From: Caldilineaceae bacterium
GTDB lineage: Bacteria; Chloroflexota; Anaerolineae; Caldilineales; Caldilineaceae
Reading direction: 5' to 3'
NCBI GenBank assembly: GCA_011523365.1
Contig: WTGY01000177.1
Location: 62,001-126,000, forward strand
DNA: 64,000 nucleotides
In this document: piece after piece, positions 1 through 13,102 of the stretch
Layout: each line of letters opens with the position of its first letter
Numbering within the stretch: position 1 is the stretch's first letter
Made by a program: the position numbers and the translations under genes
Notes under the pieces: model-generated
Database searches by the model: none
What the model was told of the DNA's origin: nothing
Seen by the model: the letters and a program-made list of their open reading frames with translations, nothing else

Positions 1-539
1 TCTTTTCCGAAGAAGCTGCCGATCTCGCGGCAGGCGATGCAGTGCTGGATCCAGAACTGGCGGATGTCGTTGTCGTAGGAGGCCAGAGTGAAGCCGTCTT
101 CGGCCAGGGGGTGGGAGAACAGCGTGGGGTTGAAGTCGATGCCGCGGCCGTTTTCTTTGGCCCAGTCTGCCCAGCCCTGAAAGTGGCGCGGCTCGATCTT
201 GTTGCGAGCGGGTTTTTCATCGGTATCGGGGTACATGGCGTGAAGATTGAGGCGGTGATTGCCGGGGATGATGCTGTAAGCGGTGTCCAGATCGCTGCGG
301 AGCTCGTCCACGGTGCGGGCGCGGCCGGGATAGTTGCCGGTCGCCATGAGACCGCCGCCCAAGCCCCGGCCGGGCTCTTCAAAGCCGAGAACGTCGTCGC
401 CCTGCCAGCAGTGGAGGCTGATGGGGACGCCGCGCAGCGTTGCCAGGGCCTGCTCCGTGTCCACGCTGATGGCGGCGTACCGTTCCTGGGCCAGGGTGTA
501 TGCGTCTTCGATCTGTTTCGATGTCGTAGCAAAGTTCAT
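1..539 (-). CDS. rhaA: L-rhamnose isomerase, N-terminal part (gene runs off the window)
   Basis: The minus strand encodes about 179 residues from an ATG at 537-539 and is still open at base 1, so the C-terminal half lies outside the window. L-rhamnose isomerase converts L-rhamnose to L-rhamnulose in the cytoplasm, the first catabolic step, using divalent metals. Recognition rests on the family's N-terminal landmarks: SLHCWQGDDVLGFE, a glycine-rich stretch followed by ATGNYPGRA, LNLHAMYPD, and GIDFNPTLFSHPLAEDGFTL. Metal-binding residues of this family lie mostly in the missing part. A near-perfect palindrome at 860-879 lies upstream and could be a regulator site. The next gene upstream (dnaE) is unrelated, so rhaA probably begins its own transcription unit. 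Confidence 0.9.
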   Translation of the reverse strand, partial: MNFATTSKQIEDAYTLAQERYAAISVDTEQALATLRGVPISLHCWQGDDVLGFEEPGRGLGGGLMATGNYPGRARTVDELRSDLDTAYSIIPGNHRLNLHAMYPDTDEKPARNKIEPRHFQGWADWAKENGRGIDFNPTLFSHPLAEDGFTLASYDNDIRQFWIQHCIACREIGSFFGK

Positions 540-7283: not shown

Positions 7284-7375
7284 AGGCCCGGTAGCGGGCT
7301 GGCGTCGTGAGCGGTTCGGCACGGGCCTGTGTTAGAATTGTGCAGCAGGATTGAAACGACTCAGGAGGCAGAGAG

Positions 7376-8500
7376 ATGACAGAGACGACCTTACCGCTTA
7401 CTGCGCGCGTCGCCTGCGCGGGTTGAGCCTCGAAGCTCCCTCCCGGGGCGTTGTCGCAGGTCGTGCGGCAGATGGCTGCGGTCTTTCCGCAAACTGAATA
7501 TCCTGATGTTCTCATCGGTTTGGGCAAACCTGACGATGCGGCGGTCTACCGCCTGGATGACGAGCGGGTTCTCATTCAGACGACCGACTTCTTCACGCCA
7601 ATTGTTGATGATCCCTGGCTGTACGGAGCGATTGCCGCGGCCAACTCGATGAGCGACGTGTACGCGATGGGCGGCGAGGTACGCGTCTGTCTCAATATTG
7701 CCGGATTTCCTGAAGATCTGCCTGCCGAGGTGGTAGCCGAGATCCTGGCGGGAGGTGCGGCCAAAGTGCAGGAGGCGGATGCTGCGATCGCCGGAGGACA
7801 TACGGTGACCAATCCCGAGCCGTTCTATGGCTTGAGCGTCACGGGCGTCGCCGCCCCCGGTTCGCTGTTTCGAAAGGGAAGCGCAGCGGCAGGAGATCAT
7901 TTGGTCCTGACTAAACCGCTGGGCACCGGCATCATCACCACGGCAGCTAAGCTCACAGGACAAGCAGAGAGCGCAGATTCCCGCAAGGCGCGGCACGCGT
8001 TGGGAAAACCAGACATTCAGCCATCCCATCTTGAAGACGCCATCGGTTCGATGACCCGCTTGAACCGCGCGGCTGCTCATGCAGGCTGTGCCGCGGGCGT
8101 ACGGAGCGGAACGGATATCACCGGTTACGGCCTGTTGGGTCATGCGGTCGAACTGGCGACTGCGTCTGCCGCCGAGTCACTGGTTCAACTCCAGATCGAG
8201 GCGGAGAGCGTGCCGGCCCTGCCGGGCGTCTTCGGTTATATCGAGGCCGGTTATCTGACGCGAGGTAGCGCACGTAATCCTGAGCACTTTGGGGAGCATG
8301 TGGCTGCCGCCCCCGGCGTGACCGCGGCGCACATAACACTGTTATGGGAGTCTGAAACAAGCGGAGGACTTCTGCTGGCGGTTCCGCCTTCTGGTCTCGG
8401 TCAGTTCCGAGACGTGTGTGAGGGGAATGAACAGCCATTCTGGGAAATCGGTACCGTCGAGCCGGCCGGTAGGGATCAGTCGGTCATTACGCTCCTCTAG
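7376..8500 (+). CDS. selD: selenide, water dikinase (selenophosphate synthetase), selenocysteine-containing
   Basis: 374 residues if the in-frame TGA at 7424-7426 is read as selenocysteine. SelD makes selenophosphate from selenide and ATP, the selenium donor for Sec-tRNA and selenouridine. Translation from the ATG at 7376, which follows AGGAGG at 7363-7368, gives the family's N-terminal active-site loop CAG-U-ASK: Sec at 17 and Lys at 20, matching Cys17 and Lys20 of E. coli SelD. Downstream, family blocks are present: DDAAVY, TTDFFTPIVDDP, AAANSMSDVYAMGG, AGGHTV, DITGYGLLGHAVEL and the C-terminal ETSGGLLLAV. Starting at the later TTG (7451) would delete the catalytic loop, so the Sec reading is favoured. 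Sec machinery genes (selA, selB, selC) are not in the window. Confidence 0.93.
7424..7453 (+). promoter_or_regulatory. Sec UGA codon and candidate bacterial SECIS hairpin in selD
   Basis: The UGA is at 7424-7426. Starting 4 bases after it, CGAAGCUCC (7431-7439) can pair with GGGGCGUUG (7445-7453) around a CUCCC loop, with one A/G mismatch and two G-U pairs. Bacterial SECIS elements are coding-region hairpins directly after the UGA that bind SelB, so position fits. The loop lacks the GU seen in E. coli fdhF, so the exact structure is uncertain. Confidence 0.5.
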
Positions 8501-11162: not shown

Positions 11163-11910
11163 TGGAGAGACGCGGGGCGGTTGGCGTGAAGCAGTTAGCC
11201 GGAAGGCAAGAGACTAGAAGGCGAAGAGCTCAGAAACGGGAAGGGCGAAACCAGTCAGCGGGCCTGTACCGGCCAGCGTGTCGCCACGGCGCAGAGCGGT
11301 GCGCTGCGAAGCGGTACGGTAGACGTAGACGGTCTCCTCATCAGGGTCGACGATCCAGAGTGTATCAACGCCGATCGAGAAGTAGTCATCGATCTTCTGG
11401 CGCATCTCAGCCCAGCGGTCGTTGGGGGACAGAATCTCCACAATCAGGTCGGGGGCAACCTCGACAAACCCGGCCGGCGGGCCGTCTGGCAGTTTTGCAA
11501 ATGACCAGACGGCAAGATCGGCGCCGCGTATTCGATCCGGTTCGTGGCGGATATAGATTCCGATTTCTCCGACCAAGCACCAGCCAACTTTTGTGTCTTC
11601 AACAAAGGTACCCAAGCGGCGGTCGAGCCTCGATTCGAGGAAGCCGTGTATTCCACCGGTTGGGCTCATGCTTACGATCACTCCGTCAATGAGTTCACAG
11701 GGGCCGATGTCACCCATTGCCAGCAGGTCGGAACCGGTGACAGTTCCAGTCGTTGTTTGCATTGGTTGCGCAGTCATCGATCTGGTCCTTTTTTCCTTCC
11801 CGACACGTATATCCTGGCCTGTTCGACACATTTGCCGGAAGAAGAACCGTCTGTCTTCAAGATGCAGTATAGCATACCTGTGATAGATGGAGAGAAGCCT
11901 CGGCATACGG
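11098..11910. repeat. duplicated segment, copy 1
   Basis: This ~0.8-kb segment contains the 5' end of the CoA-transferase gene, the gap, the whole first Uma2 gene and its upstream flank. It aligns with 12031-12850 along its whole length, including non-coding parts such as GAACCGTCTGTC and the GCAGTATAGCA block upstream of each Uma2 gene. Confidence 0.85.
11214..11777 (-). CDS. Uma2 family (DUF820) putative PD-(D/E)XK endonuclease, copy 1
   Basis: 187 residues from the ATG at 11775-11777; an upstream extension of the frame has no ribosome site and lies in copied flank sequence. Uma2 proteins have a restriction-endonuclease-like fold; their cellular role is unproven. Visible blocks: [38 protein letters not shown], then [46 protein letters not shown]. 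The Asp in GADLAV and the Glu in LIVEILSP fit the PD-(D/E)XK acidic residues. It is nearly identical in the second half to its neighbour at 12147-12710 and is the product of the same duplication. Confidence 0.9.
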   Translation of the reverse strand: MTAQPMQTTTGTVTGSDLLAMGDIGPCELIDGVIVSMSPTGGIHGFLESRLDRRLGTFVEDTKVGWCLVGEIGIYIRHEPDRIRGADLAVWSFAKLPDGPPAGFVEVAPDLIVEILSPNDRWAEMRQKIDDYFSIGVDTLWIVDPDEETVYVYRTASQRTALRRGDTLAGTGPLTGFALPVSELFAF

Positions 11911-12030
11911 CTTGAAGGCCGTTCTTCCCGTCCCTGGTGGCGGGCGAGACGCCGTCGTCCAGACACCCTGTATCAGTAGGGATTCACAATCGTTCAGACC
12001 GTGGCGCGGAAGCCGCACAATGTCTCGACA

Positions 12031-12092
12031 GCGTATGGACCTGCGAGGACGCGCAAGAAATGGTGAACGGTGATTGGGGACAGGGCGTGGCG
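12031..12092 (-). pseudogene. stump of the CaiB/BaiF CoA-transferase 5' end
   Basis: These ~62 bases correspond to codons 1 to about 21 of the CoA-transferase gene (11100-11162) with roughly one change in six bases. The ATG has been lost, and the frame is disrupted. It was carried along with the Uma2 duplication and is not expected to be translated. Confidence 0.75.
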
Positions 12093-12146
12093 GGTTTGCG
12101 AGGTTCGGGGCGGCTGGTGTGAAGCAGTTGGCAGGCAAGCAAGAGA

Positions 12147-12710
12147 TCAGAGGGCGAAGAGCTCAGAAACGGGAAGGGTGAAACCGGTTAGCGGGCCTGT
12201 TCCGGCCAGCGTGTCGCCACTGCGAAGAGCGGTGCGCTGCGAAACGGAATGATAGACGAAGACGGTTTCCTCGACCGGGTCGACGATCCAGAGTCTATCA
12301 ACGCCTATTGAGAAGTAGTCATCGATCTTCTGGCGCATCTCAGCCCAGCGGTCGTTGGGGGACAGAATCTCCACAATCAGGTCGGGGGCAACCTCGACAA
12401 AACCGGCCGGCGGGCCGTCTGGCAGTTTTGCATATGACCAGACGGCAAGATCGGCGCCACGTATCCGATCCGGTTCGTGGCGGATATAGATACCGACCTC
12501 TCCGACCATGCAAAATCCGACTTCCCTTTCTTTGATAAACCCGCCAACTAAGAGGGCGAGCGTCAATTCTATGAAACCATGTAATCCACCGGCTGGGCTC
12601 ATCGTTACTATCACTCCGTCAATGAGTTCACAGGGGCCGATGTCACCCATTGCCAGCAGTTCGGCGCCGGTCACGAGTTTGGTTGCTGTATCAGTAGACT
12701 GGACTGTCAT
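12147..12710 (-). CDS. Uma2 family (DUF820) putative PD-(D/E)XK endonuclease, copy 2
   Basis: 187 residues from the ATG at 12708-12710, exactly the length of its duplicate. The region from [11 protein letters not shown]-like (here [10 protein letters not shown]) to the end is almost unchanged, including [23 protein letters not shown]. Residues 45-90 differ more: the FLESRLDRRLGTFVEDTK segment of copy 1 is [18 protein letters not shown] here. No disabling mutation is visible, so both copies appear functional. The middle segment may set specificity, which is inference. Confidence 0.9.
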
Positions 12711-13102
12711 CAGGCTGGTCCGTGTTTCCTTTCTGGCGCGAGTGTGGTGTAGCCTGCGCGCCATATCGTCGGGAAATAGAACCGTCTGTCAATGACATGC
12801 AGTATAGCACACTTGCTGTGTATGGCGGGAGGCTCCTGGGTACGGCCCGGGCGTCATCTTCACATCTGCGGGTAGCGCGGCCAAGCTCTCTTGACTCCGT
12901 GTGCCGGCACGAAAGGGTCGCTGTGCCAAACGCGTCGTTGGCGCCGATTGTGGTTCAGCGAGGAAAGAGCACTATAATGCAGACAGAGTCCGGTTTGCAT
13001 CCTCCGCGCCACCTCAGTTCAATCAGCTCTGACCTCTCCACAGTGACATTTGCGGGAACTGGGCTGGAAGAGCCATATTACTCCTTCCAACACCGAAAGG
13101 AA

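Follow-up and report, generated by a model that had tools for sequence, protein, structure and literature searches.

Selenide, water dikinase (SelD) supplies the question of this locus: is the in-frame TGA at codon 17 of its gene read as selenocysteine (Sec), or is it a stop, a sequencing error or a codon for some other residue? The window (the whole stretch of 64,000 nucleotides analysed) comes from a draft genome of 5.67 Mb and 99% completeness, and its named relatives (Caldilineaceae MAGs, at most 94% protein identity) place the organism in the Caldilineaceae, Chloroflexota. We conclude, with a probability of about 0.97, that the gene is the SelD of this Caldilineaceae bacterium and that its UGA codon 17 is decoded as Sec. 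The reading frame, the conserved UGA, the full set of decoding genes, the conserved hairpin behind the codon and the absence of a Cys-containing copy were all directly observed and form the basis of this reading.

The frame opens at ATG (7376-7378), runs through MTETTLPLTARVACAG to the TGA (7424-7426), continues as ASKLPPGALSQVVRQM, which begins with ASKLPPG, and closes at TAG (8498-8500). The read-through protein scored above the cut-off of the NCBIfam selD equivalog model TIGR00476 (Table 1) and is thus a SelD by that model. In the SelD family, residue 17 and Lys20 lie in a mobile N-terminal loop and share in phosphate transfer from ATP to selenide, which is established. When the protein was aligned residue by residue with E. 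coli SelD (PDB 3u0o), position 17 fell on Cys17 and position 20 on Lys20, so the N-terminal loop carries both a Cys/Sec position at 17 and a lysine at 20; a literature search for Cys17 and Lys20 of SelD jointly returned nothing. The first-pass annotation had proposed a frame from the ATG behind AGGAGG through the TGA into SelD, with UGA at codon 17 and Lys at codon 20 as counterparts of E. coli Cys17 and Lys20, and had warned that automated callers starting at 7451 would miss the active site; the sequence, the model score, the alignment and the ORF calls bear out all of this.

Table 1. Positions of the features discussed (window coordinates, except for fdhA)
Feature	Position	Strand	Basis or remark
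Shine-Dalgarno AGGAGG	7363..7368	+	7 nt 5' of ATG; read from sequence
selD, 374 residues including Sec17	7376..8500	+	TIGR00476, 335 bits (cut-off 125); sole SelD of the genome
Cys14 codon of Cys-x-x-Sec	7415..7417	+	TGC throughout the family-level set (38/38)
TGA codon 17, predicted selenocysteine	7424..7426	+	Frame, conservation, alignment to E. coli SelD
Lys20 codon (AAG), catalytic lysine by homology to E. coli SelD	7433..7435	+	Alignment
TTG, likely automated start; Cys14, Sec17 and Lys20 lost	7451..7453	+	Table-11 ORF call
bSECIS hairpin	7451..7471	+	Stem 7452-7458 with 7464-7470, apical loop GGUCG 7459-7463; folding and conservation
fdhA, formate dehydrogenase alpha subunit	L133 1501-3504 (G000:C2:13124-15127)		One in-frame TGA, Sec140-equivalent

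Indeed, ORF calling under table 11 returned only 7451..8500, with a TTG start and without the catalytic loop, which is what one would expect if the UGA were a true stop and SelD began at the TTG. This explanation is very improbable, since codons 8-16 upstream of the TGA encode a conserved peptide (LTxxVACAG) while several of their third positions are free, AGGAGG sits ahead of 7376, and a protein started at the TTG would lack both residue 17 and Lys20 in a genome that has no other SelD. The gene model is corrected accordingly, as calls from 7451 drop the entire active site.

Decoding of UGA as Sec predicts selA, selB and selC (tRNA-Sec) elsewhere in the genome, as the first-pass annotation had pointed out, and all three were found. 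The tRNA-Sec scored 67.6 bits with anticodon UCA (TCA) and was called SeC(tca) by ARAGORN; in profile searches SelB reached 292 bits (312 including a C-terminal stretch), above the cut-off, and SelA 553.6 bits over two stretches of a single frame. These three together in one genome make up the gene set of a selenoprotein-producing bacterium. Exactly one SelD copy is present, and a second, Cys-containing SelD, sought across this genome, was not found; the combination named beforehand as speaking against Sec, namely no selB or tRNA-Sec together with a second Cys SelD, is therefore not the one that the genome holds. Selenouridine synthase (TIGR03167), another possible consumer of selenophosphate, was sought in the genome and not detected. 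The two matched stretches of SelA (G000:C200:56135-57565) are parted by about 33 residues in the same frame, an insertion present in this genus and not seen in most other relatives.

SelD as the only selenoprotein of the genome was ruled out, as the formate dehydrogenase FdhA carries an in-frame UGA at the residue matching Sec140 of E. coli FdhF (SRA-U-HAPTVAGL, compared with ARV-U-HGPSVAGL in FdhF). Both genes carry UGA, and from this gene content SelD would be needed at least for its own synthesis and for that of FdhA. In some systems Cys is inserted at UGA codons for Sec when selenium is limiting, and UGA might likewise be read as Trp or Gly in a recoded genome; no sign of either was found here. 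Reading of codon 17 as another residue by either route is nevertheless highly unlikely here, given the dedicated tRNA-Sec, SelA and SelB, the alignment of the UGA to Cys17, the second UGA, which coincides exactly with the Sec site in FdhA, and the other large genes of the window, which are open under table 11. As a separate observation, ORF translations at 11214-12764 of the window (minus strand) revealed two neighbouring, closely similar gene copies, which we take to be Uma2-like (putative endonuclease fold).

Among 80 named homologous selD loci the TGA site was covered in 79, with TGA in 77/79 and TGC in 2/79, and at the family level codon 17 was TGA in all 38 distinct SelD sequences, which come from independent assemblies. 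The protein is conserved on both flanks of the UGA, which aligns with the conserved Cys/Sec, as in a selenoprotein. A misread TGC or TGT in an ordinary Cys SelD, the other possibility that the first-pass annotation had raised against Sec, gains something from the phylum, where Cys SelD does occur (the two TGC homologues and TGA-free frames in the phylum sample). However, the same codon is TGA in every one of the family-level sequences and in nearly all named relatives, and a conserved hairpin follows it; sequencing error is therefore excluded, its residual probability being practically negligible, and by the agreement of independent assemblies it may be regarded as already refuted. Chance as the source of the in-frame TGA is likewise excluded by the sequence comparison.

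In the set of 61 genomes (that of the window and 60 relatives), 54 encoded a SelD with exactly one TGA, and 51 of them also had a detected tRNA-Sec, as against 2 of the remaining 7; the three single-TGA genomes lacking tRNA-Sec are drafts of 69-87% completeness. In a phylum sample of 251 genomes TGA was the common state, with several lineages without a stop (apparent Cys forms). Three relatives have other arrangements. L143 (G037:C278:12519-14249) carries a tandem pair of selD genes, each with TGA at the codon-17 position, of which one reads SAGUAAK (without Cys14) and the other CAGUAGK, the second gene ending at the contig end. The family member L142 (G018:C168) has a Sec-SelD and, at about 32% identity, a divergent second SelD-like gene whose loop contains Cys (GGCAAK). 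In the family-level genome L141 (G026:C86) the only SelD detected has Cys in the loop (RAGCAAK), selA is present and tRNA-Sec was not detected; a Sec-to-Cys conversion with leftover machinery is possible there.

A bSECIS element was to be looked for behind the UGA, and a hairpin that is conserved and fits the published model was found at 7451-7471. Its sequence is UGUCGCA-GGUCG-UGCGRCA (7452-7470), with U7451-G7471 adding an eighth pair in the present sequence. The apical loop of 5 nt starts 32 nt after the UGA with GG first, the stem has 7-8 bp, and the conserved 21-24 nt segment folds at -10.3 kcal/mol (z -3.2). The bSECIS model quoted in PMC13188914 (loop 3-9 nt, upper stem 4-16 bp, a G within the first two positions of the loop, a distance of 16-37 nt to the UGA, MFE at most -7.5) is matched on every count. 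By themselves the shape criteria discriminate poorly in so GC-rich a gene, where of 348 other in-frame positions 33 score equally high (some of them detecting the very same hairpin), and segments of 43-56 nt from the UGA showed no stability above shuffles, the signal being limited to the conserved 21-24 nt hairpin. Therefore, we base the bSECIS assignment on conservation and covariation. Pairing held in 98.2% of cells across 16 distinct sequences (12-57% in slid controls), and one pair changed on both sides, from U-A to G-C, with U-G as a further variant. Synonymous alternatives are never used at codons 27-30 (TCG/GCG CAG GTC GTG; conservation 1.00), the seven-codon window 24-30 ranks first of 355 windows in selD for synonymous conservation, and the pattern GCAGGTC-N(0-2)-TGC occurs once on the plus strand of the window. 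In addition, fdhA of the same genome has a hairpin with a GGUCU loop 18 nt after its UGA, the spacing of E. coli fdhF, and the loop core GGUC is common to selD, this fdhA and E. coli fdhF; its presence in both genes of this genome is what a single SelB reading both mRNAs would predict.

The decoding genes, the single SelD, the conservation of the TGA and the bSECIS hairpin strongly support the earlier proposal that this UGA specifies Sec. By homology, Sec would be inserted in vivo and Sec17 would take part in catalysis. We propose that SelB, loaded with Sec-tRNA(Sec), recognises the hairpin to bring Sec to the ribosome, and that selenide handling and ATP-dependent phosphorylation take place in the flexible N-terminal loop, at Sec17 and Lys20. 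The selenophosphate would feed SelA to give further Sec-tRNA(Sec) for the synthesis of SelD and of at least one other protein, the Sec-containing formate dehydrogenase. The enzyme would thus depend on its own product, a circularity discussed earlier for bacteria (PMC1794560).

Sec-containing SelD is a prokaryotic selenoprotein of wide distribution (PMC13188914, PMC1794560), second among prokaryotic selenoproteins by spread, and the first-pass annotation was correct that some bacteria have it. Because it has long been known, the present case adds little conceptually; a literature search gave no specific result on SelD in Chloroflexota, and the genetic basis of Sec use is now set out for an uncultured Caldilineaceae lineage. 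The conserved Cys-x-x-Sec motif (C14-A-G-U17), a less usual feature by which this SelD differs from the E. coli type, is its sole testable novelty. In a Chloroflexota-centred clade, Cys14 and Sec17 might conceivably form a redox pair (a selenenylsulfide or a selenium-holding relay) and so define a redox-gated variant of selenophosphate synthetase, a tentative suggestion that we consider rather unlikely.

Compared with known systems, the protein is collinear with E. coli SelD across 363 residues and agrees at positions 17 and 20, whereas the loop is G-C17-G-C19-K20 in E. coli and G-U17-A-S-K20 here, with Ser in place of Cys at position 19 and Cys14 in place of Gly14. The hairpin shares the apical core GCA-GGUC...UGC with the bSECIS of E. 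coli fdhF but lies farther from the UGA (32 nt to the loop, 18 nt in fdhF) and has one additional G in the loop. As in the Sec-containing SelD/SPS2 family, the predicted Sec occupies the site of E. coli Cys17 in the flexible N-terminal loop and is followed by Lys20, but the loop C-A-G-U-A-S-K has an extra Cys three residues ahead of Sec. In the Global Ocean Sampling survey (PMC2398784) CxxC occurred in all Ndh-SelD fusions, and the two TGC homologues found here also have CxxC; the CxxU SelDs of that survey resemble the Caldilineaceae SelD in the active site, but CxxU was present in about 5.6% of single-domain Sec-SelDs there, whereas residue 14 is Cys in 71/77 of the TGA-containing named relatives here (Ala in 6/77).
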